Shown: positions 13,273-49,380 of the stretch, one piece after another
Numbering within the stretch: position 1 is the first letter of the stretch
Layout: each line of letters starts with the position of its first letter
Assembly (NCBI GenBank): GCA_012862575.1
Contig: BLSF01000008.1
Location: 719,871 to 783,870, forward strand
Source: Parietichytrium sp. I65-24A
Lineage: Eukaryota; Sar; Bigyra; Thraustochytrida; Thraustochytriidae
Direction of reading: 5' to 3'
Length of the DNA: 64,000 nucleotides
Translations under genes and position numbers: made by a program
The notes under the pieces: model-generated
The model's database searches: none
What the model was told of the DNA's origin: nothing
The model's input: the letters and a program-made list of their open reading frames with translations, nothing else

Positions 13273-13523
13273 GACTGACAGTCGACTGGACTCACGTGCG
13301 AAGAACAACTCCGGCGGTAACACAAAACAATGCGAGCGACGACTGCCACGATACCAGCACCATCCGTCGTCACCGATACCGATACCGATACCGATATCGA
13401 TACCGTTGCCTGCCAAAGTCGTCACATCTTGTTGTTCTTCTTTTCCTATTCTCCACTCAGCTCTGAAACACACGTTGACTTTCTTCCTTGCTTCCGTCTT
13501 TCGCAGCTCTCTCGCAGCGCCGT

Positions 13524-13552
13524 CAGTCCCCACTGTCCCCACTGTCCCCACC
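13524..13552 (+). repeat. CCCCACTGT 9-mer tandem repeat
   Basis: Two full CCCCACTGT units are flanked by partial ones, 148-176 bases before the ATG of the deaminase fusion. A near-identical array (GCCCACTGT units) lies upstream of the Ku80 gene at 33013-33039. Confidence 0.75.
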
Positions 13553-13609
13553 GCGCACCCCGTTCCGCACAGCTGCAAACGTCCCTTTCCAACTACTGCG
13601 TCCCAGGAG

Positions 13610-13680
13610 TCCCAGGAGTCCAAGGAGTTTCAGGAGTCCCAAAGTGTCCCAAAGCGTCCCAAAGCGTCCCAAAGTGTCCT
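13610..13680 (+). repeat. TCCCAGGAG / TCCCAAAGYG tandem repeat
   Basis: Four 9-base units of TCCCAGGAG type are followed by four 10-base TCCCAAAGYG units, ending about 20 bases before the ATG at 13700. Confidence 0.75.
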
Positions 13681-13699: not shown

Positions 13700-15067
13700 A
13701 TGGTGCCGAGCCGCGCGGGACAGCTGGCAGCGCTGCAGCACGCGCGTCTTGCGTACGCGCTGGGCCACGTGCCGGTGGGCGCGTCCGTAGTGTCCTCGGG
13801 CGGGCGGCTGGTGTCCTCGGCGCGCAACCACGGCCCTCTCCACGCCGAGGTCGCCGCCCTGCTCCGCGCCAGGACGCCCCGCGCCCATCTCCGCGCGGAG
13901 GACACCGGGAACCCGACCCCGGAGCGCGGGGAGCGCGGGAACCGGCGGCGAGGCGGGTTCCTGGCGGCCGGCGCGAAGCTCTTCGCCACGCTGGAACCCT
14001 GCGACGCGTGCCTCGCCAGCGCGCTCAACGACCGCGTCGCGGCGGTGTACTTTGCCGCAAGGAGCCCCAGATGCGGCGCCTTCCGCCTTCCGCAGATTCC
14101 GCAGCCCGACAGAAAGGACGCGGAACACGCGGAACATGCGGAACACGCGGAGAACGCACTGGGCGAGGACACGTCACTGGGTGCGCGCATGCTCAGCGAG
14201 AGCCCGGCGTACGGGCGCGACAGGCGACCCGAAATCAGATGCACTGCCGGCGATGATGCGGGAGAGAGTGCGCGAGACGAGAGCGGAAGCGAGGAGGCCG
14301 AAGCCATTGCGCGAGAGAGTGCCAGCCTCATGCGCAGCTTCTTCGCCCGTCGCCGCGACAAGGACGGTCCGGTCAAGGGAGAAGTCGGAAAGATGGACAA
14401 GGCGGAGAAGCACGAGAAGCACGGGCAACGCGCAAGAGAATCGCAGGCAGTGATCATTGCGCAGGCGCTGGTGCTGTCCAAGGACCGGGGACATGTGCTG
14501 CTGAGGCGGCACGTGGACGGCGCATACGTGGGAAGGTACACGGGATTTCTGGATGTGGTGGACTCGGTGGACGTGTTGGAAACAGCGGACATGGCTGACG
14601 ACGGGGCCGCCAATTCGGACATCGGCGATAGCTTTAGCGACCACGTGCCGGTGCCAGCCAAGTCCGTTTTGCAAGACATCGTGGCCAGGCAGAGCGCGGG
14701 CAAGGTATGCGATGGAGCATGGGAGAACATGCGGCACCTCGGCACCCTCGAATTCCTGGAGGTGGGCAAGGACGCTGGTGTGGAAACGAGGCCGAGCCTA
14801 GAGTTCCAGTTCGTGGTGGAGACCAGCCTCTCGCCAGGGCCAACTGGCGACGATTCGCTTGAGTGGTTCCCGAGGAGTGAGCTCCCATTCCACGCTATGC
14901 CGGCAGACGACCAGTTCTGGTACAACGACGTTTTGCAGCTCTCGGACGTCCAGGCCAGCCCATACCCAGCCACGTCATTCGATCACTTGAGTGGCTATTT
15001 TGTGTTTGACGGAAAGGAGCTCTTGTGCTGGGAGACAAAGCTGGGCCGTTGGGCCGAGTGGATTTAG
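13700..15067 (+). CDS. TadA-like tRNA adenosine deaminase fused to MTH1-like domain lacking the Nudix box
   Basis: 455 residues. Residues 5-225 follow bacterial TadA: the VPVGASVV strand, HAEVAAL with zinc ligand His48 and proton-shuttle Glu50, TLEPCDAC with zinc ligands Cys101 and Cys104, AARSPRCGA, and the closing helix ASLMRSFFARRR, which matches the C-terminal TadA helix. An Ala/Glu/His-rich insertion (about 135-200) separates the last two. Residues 248-455 follow the MTH1/NUDT1 fold: ALVLSKDRGHVLLRR, GRYTGFLDVV, a 30-residue insertion, LEWFPRSELPFHAMPADDQF and HLSGYFVFDG near the end. The Nudix box should read G-x5-E-x7-REUxEExGU. Here that place holds VLQDIVARQSAG, with no catalytic glutamates. 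The ATG at 13700 precedes the first TadA helix; upstream frame is repeat sequence. TadA enzymes make inosine at the tRNA wobble position. The C-terminal domain could be a binding module. Confidence 0.88.
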   Translation: MVPSRAGQLAALQHARLAYALGHVPVGASVVSSGGRLVSSARNHGPLHAEVAALLRARTPRAHLRAEDTGNPTPERGERGNRRRGGFLAAGAKLFATLEPCDACLASALNDRVAAVYFAARSPRCGAFRLPQIPQPDRKDAEHAEHAEHAENALGEDTSLGARMLSESPAYGRDRRPEIRCTAGDDAGESARDESGSEEAEAIARESASLMRSFFARRRDKDGPVKGEVGKMDKAEKHEKHGQRARESQAVIIAQALVLSKDRGHVLLRRHVDGAYVGRYTGFLDVVDSVDVLETADMADDGAANSDIGDSFSDHVPVPAKSVLQDIVARQSAGKVCDGAWENMRHLGTLEFLEVGKDAGVETRPSLEFQFVVETSLSPGPTGDDSLEWFPRSELPFHAMPADDQFWYNDVLQLSDVQASPYPATSFDHLSGYFVFDGKELLCWETKLGRWAEWI

Positions 15068-43820: not shown

Positions 43821-45216
43821 GCCATAGCTTTGCGGCGGCTCGGCGAACCCAAGTCCCCCGCGCGACCGCACTCAACACGTCTCGAGACGCCTCGCTTCAG
43901 GTCCTTCACGTGGCAAGCGCCAACCCAGTCTTCGAGGAACGAAAAGTTGAGCCTCTACTAGCCCCATTACACTTACAAAGGCCATACAAATTGACAGTGA
44001 TCTCTTCTACACGAGCTCTGCTCAAGAATTGAATGAGAACAAGTTGAACAAGTGCTTTATTTTTTCGCTTTTTGCTGTCAATCATTGTTGTCGAAATAGA
44101 GTTTGGGAGTTTGGTTTCGACCGATCGCTTCACTTGGCGAAACAGAGTGCTTTCTTCTCTTTCTTCTCTTCTTTCACCGAGTTTGGACAATCACACCCAA
44201 CTGTGCATGTTCACATCATTCACGTCCTCCTCATCAATTGAAAAAGACGATAGGTCAACGTCTGCGGAACGCAATCATTTAACGGACACTGATCAGAGGA
44301 ACAGTTCTCTCAGTCGGGAACGGTCATATCGGACTTTCACTATCTGCCTATACTCTTACAATTTTAAACCCCATGGTTGCTCCGGGGTCCGGTATTAGAA
44401 GTATTTGAGGAGTTAGATGGTCAGTCGGACTTGAACATAATAACAGCTCTGCTGTTCATTTTGAGACTGTGAAACAACAAGAGAGAGCAGCGAAACCACA
44501 CGGAGACAAACAGAACAGAACGAGAGAGGAAGAAAGAAAGGAAAAGAGAGAGAGAGAGAGAGAGAGAGAAAGAAACCGACTTGGCATTTCCAATACAGCG
44601 GAGTGGTACCGCCCTGAAAATCTAACGGCGTCAAGTACGAGGGGCTACTGAAACTCGACATTGAGTTTTCAACAATGAACGACCTTTGTCTGAGGCTCGA
44701 GGGTAGAGAGATGTATAGGGAGAGGAAAAGAACTAGCTTGCTACTGAGTACCGTGTGCAAAGAGGCTGAGATGAACGTACACTCGCAGGTACTGAGAGTA
44801 CACCACGTAGGTTGCAAAGAGACGGGGTTGTGAACTGTTTGGCAGTACTCGCGTCCTCTGGCAATGCACGTTACATTGCACAGGAATCCGGCTGCTGTAC
44901 CTGGCCAGGCAAACCAGACAGCGGAATAGAGCAAGTGAAGAGACAGAGGTTCGCAGCCGCGTTAATATCGCCTCGACTTGGCGCGTCAAGGGGCTTGGCA
45001 GCGCCCGTGCATGGTGAGACGAAGCAAACCTCTGCCCTTGTGTCTTCTTCGATCGCAGAGGTTTCTTTGCTTTTCTTGTTAAGGAGGAAGGGAGGGTAAG
45101 GCAGCAGCGAAACGTCTCACAAGGAGTCTCCTCAAGCGGAAGCTAGCATTTTCTGCTGGCGTATCACACAGGTTCGCCTCGCGGCGCAGAAATAGTTGCG
45201 CCGCACGCTCTCAAGC
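43821..45216. other. Spacer between membrane protein and SPT/EGF gene
   Basis: Divergent intergenic region with a GA microsatellite at 44546-44571. No coding region is supported, including the short frames around 44812-45099. Confidence 0.5.
44546..44571 (+). repeat. GA microsatellite
   Basis: About 13 GA units, 645 bases upstream of the SPT/EGF gene. Confidence 0.85.
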
Positions 45217-48200
45217 ATGCGTATGCGGGGGCCGCAGCTCTTGCTTGGGCTGCTCTCCTTGGCTCTTCATGTGCTAAACACCAATGCAGTGATACATCGG
45301 GATTGTTCGAAGACGTACCAGCTGGCGTACTATTGCAGACACTATGACAATTGTTATTGGGACTCGTCGACCGCAACATGTCGAAATGTCGAAAATTTCG
45401 TGTACCCAACTCAATCGCCTACATATGCTCCGACCCAGGTGTTGTCTCCAGTAGATGGAGGCTGCGCAAGTGCAAGCTCAAAGGCAGTTTGTTTAACATA
45501 TATGGACTGCGTCTGGAAGAATTCACAATGTAAAGATGGCCCGCCGACAAGCAGACCAACGACCTCACCGACAAAGTCTCCGAGCCGATCGCCAACGAGT
45601 TCACCCACGAATGCACCTTCGAAATCGCCAACCCCCAAGCCAACAAGGAGTCCGACACAGTCCCCGACTAAGCTCCCGACGTTCGCGCCTTCCAAAGCAC
45701 CTTCGCAGGCGCCGAGTAAGGCCCCAACTTCGTCGCCTACGAATGCACCAACTTCAACACCCACGAAGTCGCCTTCAGGTGCTCCCACAAACGAACCGAC
45801 CTTCACTCCGTCGAGATCACCTACGACTTCCAAGCCGACAAAATCCCCCGTTTCGTTTATGCCCACGGCATCTCCGACCCAAGCTCCGACTGATATCCCG
45901 ACATCAACTCCGACAACGGCCGCCCCTTCTTCTTCGCCAACTTCGACGCCTACGGAGCAACCGACTCTTGATCCAACTCGGAGCCCGTCGTATGCACCGT
46001 CAAAGTCTCCGACATCTACCCCGACCTCGTCACCAACGACAGCAGCTCCAACGAAAGCGCCTACTTCGTCGCCTACGCAACCTACGGCGACCCCGACCAC
46101 GAAGCCAACTACCATGAGTCCAAGCGCATCACCAAGCCAAACTCCTACGCTTTCACCTTCGTTTGCGCCAACGGAGGCACCTACGTCGCCAGATTCGATC
46201 GCATCCATAATTCGAGTGCAGGACATTTTGTCCCCGGATGAGAATGCCACCTTCAATCTCTTTTACACCCCGCACAAGGCCTTGCAAGTCAAGGAGGTCC
46301 TGGAATTCATGACTATGCAGCTCGTGGGAGATGAGTACTTTGGAGACCTTGAGGAGAGAACGTTTCACGAGCAGGTCATGACTCAAACAGCCATAAATAT
46401 ATCCAAAGTCGATGACTTGAATTCCACAGAAAGAGCGGGCCTGTTGGCAAACTTGACAATTGCACATTGCAGCGAAGCAATAGATGGACTTACTCACTGC
46501 CACATTGCAGACTGGAATAGCTCCGACTTTGACGAGGCGTCAGCAGCACGACAGCTTCTTGTGAGCGATGCCGAAGGATCGCTTTTGTATCCGTTCTACA
46601 TCGTCCGAGCCTTCCGGGCTGTCGGCTTTGATAACCTCTACAAGATCTCTGATGCTCAAACGGGTTCTGGAAGTAATGCTGGGCTGCTGCCTACGCGGGT
46701 CAGTGGAGGGATGGTGAGCCTCTATGACACCTCCACCCGGAGCAAAAGTGAGCAAATTAGTGCAATCCACAGCTCAATCGACCGGATCGAAGAGACCTAC
46801 GCCGAAAACTTCAATGAGATCTTGGAGTATAATAGAACCTTCGACTCGAATCCTTGCGCAATCGACCCCTGTTCTGGGCACGGCTCTTGTTACGTAAACT
46901 CCACCACGAGCCTTGAAGAATGTGTATGCGAGAGCGGATACATCGGCACCTCCTGTGAAACGTACACCCCTAAGCCGACAGAGAGTCCAACGGCTGGGCC
47001 AACTGCAGGTCCAACCATGCCAGGATCTTCCATCGCGTTTAGCGCCTTTCAATCTTTCCTTTCAGCGGATTACGATGCCGAGTTTTCGTTATCCTTTGGA
47101 TTTGAGCCTCCACTTGACATTGCAGCTCTTGAGTTTTGGGACAATCTGATGACTTCTGACTCCTTCTTAAGCAACGAAACAGAGAGAAACGTCGACCAGA
47201 TTGTTTTGGTACAGACTGGCATCATGGTGGAGGAGTATTACAGAATGACACATGATGAACTTGAAAGTATTCGGACTCAAGTGGACGAGTATTTTTGTGA
47301 TAGAAACCTGGAAGGCATGCGCTATTGTCAGGCGTGGAATACCGATAACCTTGCAAACGCGTCTCTCTCCAGGCTTCTCTCCACAAACGCATTGGACATC
47401 CCTTTCATCTTAATTCGGTCTTACAACACATCAACTGCCATTGATATTCTTGAGGAATGTCAGCAAAGCCCGACGTTGCAGTCATCAGGGGCAACTCTTT
47501 TGGATTGTCAGATCTTAGGTGGCATAGCCAACATTTTCGAAGCCAATGTAGACACAACCGCGGAGAAATCATCCCAGTTGCAGTCTTTGATCTTGGCATC
47601 CATGGAGAGTTTGAAAACCACTTTGTGGGATGTCCGTGGTACAAATTTGATTCTCCCTGACACTTTAGCACCAAACCCGTGCCACTTTAACACATGTTCA
47701 GGACACGGGACCTGTAGCTTCGATAGCAGCGGCGAGGAGAGTTGTACTTGTGACAACGGACATTATGGCTCCACATGTGACCAGAGCATAGGCTATGATA
47801 CAGGATCTGACGATGACAATAAAGACGACAAGGACGATAGTTGGATCGGTGCTGCTATCGCTGGAACGTTCTGCGGTGTAGCTGCTGTATGCTTTGGTGC
47901 TCTCTTTTTGGTGAAGCGCCGCCGTGCAAAGAAGCCCACGGCCGTGGAGCCAGAGAAGGAAAATAACAAAGACGGCCCTGAAGCAAACGATAAATTTAGC
48001 AACTCGAGAAAACCTGGAGATACAGCCATGCCTCCTACAGACGATGCTTTGGCAACGAGAAATTCGAGTAAAATGGACAACATATCTGCCACTTGGTCCT
48101 CCACCGCGCTGGACACCAAAAAGCTTCGAGCCCTAGCTCCGAAGGTAAGCCCCGTGCCTCCGCGTATGCCACAACTTTCCGAGATCCACCGAATATCTGC

Positions 48201-49380
48201 AATTGCAAGCCCAACGCAACAACAGATGGAAAATTCACGCAAGGATGGCGGTCCCTCAGCACCACCTGCTCCGATGTTACCAAGAGGGTTTTTGAGCCCG
48301 ACTAGTCCAAATGGCCCATACGCGTTCGGTGTGGGATCCCCTGGTGCAGTCATCGCGATGCAGGGGAGCGAAAACGGCCTGGCGCCTGTGTCCATCAGCA
48401 CTGTTGGGGATTACAAGAGGAGTCCAGCGCTGGAGCTTGTAAGCGCTGGCAGCCTTCAAGAATCAAGTCCAGCTGTTCCATCTATCAATTCGCTCAGCAC
48501 CATTAGCAGACATTCTCTTCAGCACGTTTCAAAGGAAAGCCTGCACACCGCGAGTGGAAATCTCATTCAGACCCCTCACAGCAATCCTTACGAGGTTCGA
48601 ACGCCCGTTTCACCGGACGACGGATCAGAACTTTTGTCACCAGGTTCTTCAGTGTTTTCAGGTTCTCCTGGTAACAAGAGTAAGAAGAATGACAGCAAGA
48701 AGAAGAAGAAGAAGAAAGGCAAAGGAAAAAAGAAGCTGCAGAGCGGAGATGTCGAAAGCCCTACTGACGACATCGAAGCATTCGACCTCGAGGGCAGCAG
48801 CCCAAAGTCACAAACGAAGAAACGCGGCAAAAAGGAAAGTCCCAAGACACCAACTAGTCCGCCTCTTCATAGCCCTGGCTCGATCGAGGAGATCGATGTT
48901 GATGCTCCATTGGCAAAATTGATCAAAGAAACTCCAGCGATGCCAAAAACACCGACAGACGATCCACCGGGACCGAAGAAAAAGAAGAAGAAGCAAGGAA
49001 AGGGCAAAGGTAACAAAGTTCTTCCATACGATAATGACTTGGAAGACAGACGGGCTGGGATTCAGGTGATTCAGCTCCAATCAGACGGCCCTAGTCCAGG
49101 AAACGGCACTCCAAAAAGAGACAAGATCAAAAAGGCATTTGGAGAGCAGGAACGACTGAGAGTAGCACAGGGCAAAGCAGAACACGTTCTCGATTTCGAC
49201 GCGAAGAATGAGCTTCAGGTAAACATCCCTTCCCTGCTGCACACTCCAAGAACGCCTCTGGATCCCAAGACTCCAGACATTATATCGCCGAAAACTCCAA
49301 AAACCCCGCACACTCCTGACGGGGAAGCACCAAAACGGAAGAAGAAAGCGAAGAAGAAAAAACAGAGCCCAAGCAAGTGA
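45217..49380 (+). CDS. Receptor-like protein: SPT-repeat stalk, duplicated ectodomain with EGF modules, one membrane span
   Basis: 1387 residues from the ATG at 45217, which starts a signal peptide (MRMRGPQLLLGLLSLALHVL). The order is a Cys-containing N-terminal region (about 30-105), and a 220-residue stalk of SPT/PT repeats (109-327). Then come ectodomain unit 1 (330-540), EGF-like module 1 (NPCAIDPCSGHGSC start), a short PT linker, ectodomain unit 2 (about 605-815) and EGF-like module 2 (NPCHFNTCSGHGTC start). A transmembrane span IGAAIAGTFCGVAAVCFGAL lies at about 877-898 with a KRRRAKK stop-transfer. The cytosolic tail of almost 490 residues is Ser/Pro/Lys-rich with KKKKKK blocks and TPKTPKTP-type repeats, and has no kinase or other enzyme motif. 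It is probably a cell-surface adhesion or sensing protein. SPT stalks are common in stramenopile wall proteins. Confidence 0.88.
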   Translation: MRMRGPQLLLGLLSLALHVLNTNAVIHRDCSKTYQLAYYCRHYDNCYWDSSTATCRNVENFVYPTQSPTYAPTQVLSPVDGGCASASSKAVCLTYMDCVWKNSQCKDGPPTSRPTTSPTKSPSRSPTSSPTNAPSKSPTPKPTRSPTQSPTKLPTFAPSKAPSQAPSKAPTSSPTNAPTSTPTKSPSGAPTNEPTFTPSRSPTTSKPTKSPVSFMPTASPTQAPTDIPTSTPTTAAPSSSPTSTPTEQPTLDPTRSPSYAPSKSPTSTPTSSPTTAAPTKAPTSSPTQPTATPTTKPTTMSPSASPSQTPTLSPSFAPTEAPTSPDSIASIIRVQDILSPDENATFNLFYTPHKALQVKEVLEFMTMQLVGDEYFGDLEERTFHEQVMTQTAINISKVDDLNSTERAGLLANLTIAHCSEAIDGLTHCHIADWNSSDFDEASAARQLLVSDAEGSLLYPFYIVRAFRAVGFDNLYKISDAQTGSGSNAGLLPTRVSGGMVSLYDTSTRSKSEQISAIHSSIDRIEETYAENFNEILEYNRTFDSNPCAIDPCSGHGSCYVNSTTSLEECVCESGYIGTSCETYTPKPTESPTAGPTAGPTMPGSSIAFSAFQSFLSADYDAEFSLSFGFEPPLDIAALEFWDNLMTSDSFLSNETERNVDQIVLVQTGIMVEEYYRMTHDELESIRTQVDEYFCDRNLEGMRYCQAWNTDNLANASLSRLLSTNALDIPFILIRSYNTSTAIDILEECQQSPTLQSSGATLLDCQILGGIANIFEANVDTTAEKSSQLQSLILASMESLKTTLWDVRGTNLILPDTLAPNPCHFNTCSGHGTCSFDSSGEESCTCDNGHYGSTCDQSIGYDTGSDDDNKDDKDDSWIGAAIAGTFCGVAAVCFGALFLVKRRRAKKPTAVEPEKENNKDGPEANDKFSNSRKPGDTAMPPTDDALATRNSSKMDNISATWSSTALDTKKLRALAPKVSPVPPRMPQLSEIHRISAIASPTQQQMENSRKDGGPSAPPAPMLPRGFLSPTSPNGPYAFGVGSPGAVIAMQGSENGLAPVSISTVGDYKRSPALELVSAGSLQESSPAVPSINSLSTISRHSLQHVSKESLHTASGNLIQTPHSNPYEVRTPVSPDDGSELLSPGSSVFSGSPGNKSKKNDSKKKKKKKGKGKKKLQSGDVESPTDDIEAFDLEGSSPKSQTKKRGKKESPKTPTSPPLHSPGSIEEIDVDAPLAKLIKETPAMPKTPTDDPPGPKKKKKKQGKGKGNKVLPYDNDLEDRRAGIQVIQLQSDGPSPGNGTPKRDKIKKAFGEQERLRVAQGKAEHVLDFDAKNELQVNIPSLLHTPRTPLDPKTPDIISPKTPKTPHTPDGEAPKRKKKAKKKKQSPSK
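45541..46195 (+). repeat. SPT/APT codon repeat region
   Basis: Imperfect in-frame repeats of three- to four-residue units (SPT, APS, APT, KSPT) over about 215 codons. They produce a long open antisense frame of Gly/Val/Asp composition that is not a gene. Confidence 0.85.

Follow-up and report, generated by a model that had tools for sequence, protein, structure and literature searches.

A putative TadA/ADAT2-clade deaminase joined to an MTH1-type domain lacking the Nudix box in the nuclear genome of a thraustochytrid

What use could a zinc-dependent deaminase make of an attached Nudix-type domain that is predicted to be noncatalytic? The question is raised by an open reading frame (ORF) in the genome of Parietichytrium sp. 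I65-24A (42.5 Mb, 172 contigs), which lies in the 64,000-nucleotide stretch analyzed here (the window), the terminal part of contig C8 (719871-783870). An earlier note had described a fusion of a TadA-like deaminase with an MTH1-like domain, 455 aa in all, at positions 13700-15067 of the window, and these coordinates proved exact: on the forward strand, a single frame runs from an ATG at 13700 to a stop codon ending at 15067, and its start is the first in-frame ATG within an open frame of 674 codons. The antisense strand at the locus also holds an ORF of 447 aa. Because such long chance ORFs occur here, the length of the fusion ORF is no evidence, and the case for a gene is therefore made by homology and codon signal. 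The codon signal, trained on ten neighboring genes, is positive in the fusion frame over the linker and the MTH1-type domain, with a peak at 14390-14700 that spans the degenerate Nudix region, and is weaker over the GC-rich deaminase part. The locus is most probably a real single-ORF nuclear gene in which two homologies are joined in one frame (Table 1), and no second copy of the fusion was found in the same genome. The upstream neighbor is a TPR-repeat gene, and the downstream one, on the other strand, is an F5/8-type-C gene; neither hints at function. At positions 13372-13679, in the presumed 5' UTR directly before the ATG, there are several short tandem repeats, with periods of 6, 9, 10, and 18. 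Elsewhere in the window, a 1394-aa frame (45196-49380) combines long PT-rich repeats and EGF-like domains with a tail rich in lysine and has the appearance of a surface protein.

Table 1. Features of the fusion gene, in window coordinates
Feature	Position	Strand	Basis
Single-exon ORF, putative TadA/ADAT2-clade deaminase plus Nudix-box-less MTH1-type domain	13700..15067	+	homology, codon signal
Predicted deaminase domain, aa 1-225 (PF00383 at aa 10-119)	13700..14374	+	Pfam, NCBIfam, PDB matches, alignment
V26 and G27 of PVGA; V26 aligns with the adenine-stacking residue of TadA/ADAT2	13775..13780	+	alignment, PMC8216470
N43, aligned to TadA N42 / ADAT2 N60 (adenine contact)	13826..13828	+	alignment, PMC8216470
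HAE: predicted zinc ligand H48, A49, predicted proton-shuttle E50	13841..13849	+	alignment
PCDAC (aa 100-104): predicted zinc ligands C101 and C104	13997..14011	+	alignment
Low-complexity insert (aa 125-205, with EHAEHAEHAEN), core to last helix	14072..14314	+	alignment, model
TadA-type C-terminal helix ESASLMRSFFARRR (aa 206-219)	14315..14356	+	alignment, model
Charged linker, aa 220-247, stop-free	14357..14440	+	frame, codon signal
Predicted MTH1-type Nudix-fold domain, aa 248-455	14441..15064	+	profile, PDB matches, models
GRYTGFLDVV (aa 278-287), equivalent of MTH1 GRWNGFGGKV	14531..14560	+	alignment
Degenerate Nudix-box region, about 32-aa insert, ending in VLQDIVARQSAG (aa 323-334)	14561..14701	+	alignment, frame scan
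LEWFPRSELPFHAMPADDQFW (aa 387-407), keeping D403, D404, and W407	14858..14920	+	alignment
HLSGYFVFDG (aa 429-438), MTH1 C-terminal strand	14984..15013	+	alignment

The N-terminal half matches PF00383 in Pfam with an E value of 5e-8. In NCBIfam, TadA ranks ahead of RibD, both far under the cutoff. Among PDB sequences, T. brucei ADAT2 and bacterial TadA match best (E values of 6e-5 to 2e-4), and the matches listed to an E value of 10 include no eukaryotic cytosine deaminase and no guanine deaminase. The fusion was aligned with TadA, ADAT2, ADAT3, and paralogs encoded in its own genome; the query sequences of E. coli TadA, B. subtilis TadA, and human MTH1 matched as expected. The zinc site of the CDA fold, HxE...PCxxC, is present. 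The TadA residues H53, E55, C83, C86, A54, N42, and I26, which serve in zinc binding, proton shuttling, and contact with or stacking on the wobble adenine (PMC8216470), align with H48, E50, C101, C104, A49, N43, and V26 of the fusion, the last three being the equivalents of the adenine pocket (A54, N42, and I/V26 in TadA). The C-terminal helix of this half, modeled as aa 194-222, has FF and RR that align to those of E. coli TadA, and the TadA helix is required for anticodon stem-loop binding (PMC8216470). The "full TadA set" of the earlier note thus stands for HAE, PCDAC, and this helix and is overstated otherwise: PCDAC replaces PC[VIT]MC, so that the Met is missing, the "NH" loop of TadA is not recognizable, the stretch before HAE is shortened, and low-complexity inserts interrupt the domain at aa about 60-90 and 125-205. 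In a maximum-likelihood tree, the deaminase half forms a very long branch outside TadA and ADAT2, with a support of 66 to 71 at the neighboring nodes, and the tree gives it no firm place among TadA, ADAT2, and guanine-deaminase-like proteins. Judged by its residues, the N-terminal domain is probably a divergent zinc deaminase of the TadA/ADAT2 clade, in which the catalytic residues are apparently intact.

The C-terminal half has no match in Pfam or NCBIfam. A phmmer search against PDB returned almost only MTH1 (E values of 0.14 to 3), and, the fusion itself aside, the top match within its own genome is the MTH1 encoded there (E value of 0.06). An MTH1-family HMM, built from 80 bacterial MTH1 relatives together with the own-genome and human MTH1 proteins, gives this half 24.4 bits (E value of 1e-6 at Z=1000), compared with a maximum of 5.6 bits when the same 208 aa were shuffled 2000 times, which indicates that the MTH1 resemblance exceeds chance. 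Two segments that the earlier note had singled out, LEWFPRSELPFHAMPADDQF and HLSGYFVFDG, begin at aa 387 and 429. Structure prediction, one of the checks that the earlier note had proposed, gave AlphaFold2 models of modest confidence (pLDDT of 67 and 63), for which every Foldseek top match listed is MTH1; VIA-align superposes them on MTH1 with Z scores of 16.3 and 19.1 over about 150 residues, and on other Nudix proteins with about 12 to 14. These fold matches are partly circular and show compatibility more than discovery, because the alignments behind the models contained MTH1s. A structure search with the full-length protein listed MTH1-domain matches only and says little on the deaminase half. 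By profile and by model, the C-terminal half is assigned to the MTH1-type Nudix domains in both descent and fold.

The proposal that this half aligns with MTH1 outside the active site holds for the general resemblance, but the loss extends beyond the Nudix box into the base pocket. The Nudix box, GX5EX7REUXEEXGU, is absent from the C-terminal half. As had been claimed, VLQDIVARQSAG occupies the place of the Nudix helix without the catalytic glutamates: E52, E55, and E56 of MTH1 align with S, K, and V, and an alternative direct alignment of VLQDIVARQSAG puts V323, D326, and I327 at these positions, so that the glutamates are lost under either plausible alignment. Upstream of it, GFGGK is changed to GFLDV (G36-G37-K38 to L-D-V). 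RExxEE does not occur in any of the six frames at the locus, and therefore no intron can restore a Nudix box, an explanation that the earlier note had named as fatal to its own reading. Of the MTH1 positions kept in at least 80% of a ten-member bacterial sample, the fusion retains 3 of the 12 that lie in the box and 20 of the 37 that lie outside it, a contrast that is suggestive only (Fisher p of 0.10). In the base pocket, the equivalents of D119 (D403), D120 (D404), F72, and W123 (W407) are kept, while N33 is replaced by T, F27 by A, and W117 by P (P401), and K23 is changed; within the 8-oxo-dGTP pocket set of N33, F27, W117, D119, and D120, only the two aspartates are kept. The MTH1-type domain has lost the residues of nucleotide hydrolysis and is predicted to be noncatalytic. 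Noncatalytic Nudix domains typically occur in multidomain proteins, where they bind small molecules or protein domains (PMC5389931).

The same genome encodes a canonical ADAT2, spliced with one intron (E value of 2e-37 to human ADAT2), an ADAT3 in which HAA replaces HAE, a separate MTH1 whose Nudix box is intact and which shares 46% identity with human MTH1, and a MutY. The ADAT2/ADAT3 pair and the MTH1 had been suggested as a check, and their presence together with MutY indicates that the fusion is an additional protein. Relatives of the fusion were absent from viral contigs when the whole protein, its C-terminal domain, and TadA and MTH1 alignments were used as queries, no TadA was found near MTH1 in the stored flanks of 80 bacterial MTH1 loci, PADLOC returned nothing on the fusion, and PHROGs gave only a dCMP deaminase match at chance level. 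The earlier note knew of no described protein with this architecture, and none was found in the open-access literature searched or in non-eukaryotic collections. Other architectures that pair a deaminase with a Nudix domain may be listed in domain databases. Our best call is that the deaminase-MTH1 architecture, known from one genome and searched for in non-eukaryotic collections, is new and is built from known families.

The fusion shares with TadA and ADAT2 the zinc site, the adenine pocket, and the FF..RR helix, but it is very divergent, has the altered PCDAC and large low-complexity inserts, and carries a C-terminal Nudix-type domain. With the 8-oxo-dGTPase MTH1 (NUDT1) it shares the sequence profile, the modeled fold, the WF..PF..M.(A)DD..W segment, and the C-terminal strand, whereas its Nudix box is erased, a 32-aa insert is present, N33, F27, K23, and W117 are replaced, and the domain is not free-standing. 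A functional parallel is provided by the ADAT2/ADAT3 heterodimer, in which a noncatalytic module, the tRNA-binding N-terminal domain of ADAT3, serves as an accessory for TadA-type catalysis (PMC8216470); however, that domain is not of the Nudix type, is N-terminal, and lies on a separate subunit. DBC1-type Nudix domains likewise have lost catalysis and are retained in a multidomain protein (PMC5389931), although they belong to another Nudix lineage and have another partner domain.

The best, if still tentative, explanation, to which we give somewhat less than an even chance, is that the fusion deaminates adenosine in RNA and that its dead Nudix domain acts as a noncatalytic binding module, by analogy with the tRNA-binding domain of ADAT3. 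The deaminase half would convert adenosine to inosine in RNA, with activity and specificity for adenosine and RNA read from its residues, and the default guess at its substrate would be a tRNA anticodon loop. The C-terminal domain, which would no longer hydrolyze nucleotides, might present the substrate, bind a partner, or sense a nucleotide, a role suggested by the binding functions of noncatalytic Nudix domains (PMC5389931) and by the ADAT3 precedent (PMC8216470). The presence of the zinc, proton-shuttle, and adenine-pocket residues and of the C-terminal helix argues for this explanation. Counting against it are the single genome with no homologue of the fusion found, the very long branch with its atypical PCDAC and large inserts, the box-versus-rest contrast that is not significant alone, and the modest confidence of models made from MTH1-containing alignments.

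Possible but distinctly less probable is that the MTH1-type domain is a structural or dimerization relic with no ligand role, or that the whole gene is decaying, so that any function would be that of the deaminase only. The inserts and the long branch, the loss of the Nudix box and of a large part of the base pocket, and the occurrence in a single genome would fit such decay, but the frame is unbroken over 455 codons with a positive codon signal that peaks over the degenerate Nudix region itself, the deaminase catalytic and adenine-pocket residues are all present, and more than half of the conserved MTH1 positions outside the box are retained. About as doubtful is the view that the protein deaminates free nucleosides, nucleotides, or bases in pool sanitation or salvage, with the dead MTH1 domain holding or sensing a nucleotide. 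MTH1 itself acts on nucleotide pools, the D119/D120, F72, and W123 equivalents of its pocket are present, and the tree leaves the N-terminal domain without a firm place, next to guanine-deaminase-like paralogs; against this, the PDB sequence matches are of the ADAT2/TadA type, the RNA-binding helix of TadA is present with its FF and RR, and the other pocket residues, N33, F27, K23, and W117, are replaced.

DNA base editors are built on TadA-type deaminases, and it is still asked how such enzymes acquire new targets. Joined to a nucleotide-recognition fold that is dead, and encoded beside a normal tRNA deaminase pair, MTH1, and MutY, the deaminase of the fusion would be an example from nature of retargeting, and the fusion would be a second case, after MutY, of a base-acting enzyme with a noncatalytic Nudix domain. 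It is rather improbable that the fusion is a new kind of guided base editor, in which an active TadA-type deaminase would be directed by the dead MTH1-type domain to a modified nucleotide or a particular RNA, or would be switched on and off by a bound nucleotide. An artifact, in which two adjacent genes or an unrecognized intron lie in a fortuitously open frame, is very unlikely: both strands of this GC-rich region carry long chance ORFs, the genome has introns (including the one in ADAT2), and the fusion is known from genomic sequence, but no stop separates the domains, the codon signal continues through the linker, and no frame holds an RExxEE for an intron to restore.

The earlier note had further proposed that the deaminase is guided to 8-oxoguanine or damaged nucleic acid in the manner of MutY. 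In MutY, an FSH motif in a noncatalytic Nudix-fold domain reads 8-oxoG (PMC13261098), and the MutY of this genome carries FSH. The likeness of the fusion to MutY/MUTYH, a noncatalytic C-terminal Nudix fold on a base-acting enzyme, is one of concept, as the C-terminal half has no detectable sequence similarity to the MutY C-terminal domain and no FSH in the equivalent place. A MutY-type C-terminal domain was rejected, since neither PF14815 (NUDIX_4) in Pfam nor the MutY C-terminal domain matched. FSDH at aa 312-315 was given no weight, as it differs from FSH and falls within an insert modeled with low confidence (pLDDT mostly below 50). With N33, F27, K23, and W117 changed and FSH absent, the proposal is not supported and has no positive evidence in its favor. 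A base editor aimed at 8-oxoguanine or damaged bases, for which the MutY precedent and an MTH1-type domain that is noncatalytic by sequence could be cited, is the least probable explanation of all, given the loss of N33, F27, and W117, the missing FSH, and the dissimilarity to the MutY domain.

Other deaminase domains were observed in this genome. A THADA/Trm732 protein of 2264 aa (L130:524-7315, minus strand; G000:C39:387523-394314; PF10350, E value of 1.5e-32; PF25151, 3e-22) has a deaminase domain inserted at about aa 1000-1149 (PF18785 Inv-AAD, E value of 1e-24; PF00383, 9e-11), with the motifs HAE and PCSVRLSGNRPC. THADA acts with FTSJ1 to form Nm32 in the anticodon loop of tRNA (PMC12145424), and the inserted deaminase may therefore be tRNA directed and a second deaminase fusion of the same genome. 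One open frame (L003:979-2652; G000:C9:149453-150427) encodes two tandem CDA-fold deaminase domains, the second of which, with SE for HAE and PCVMS for PCxxC, looks catalytically dead. A partial CDA-type deaminase match also lies inside a 2238-codon open frame on the reverse strand of another locus (L010; G000:C16:72521-72739), where the stretch examined also looks, by eye, SAM-like and EF-hand-like.
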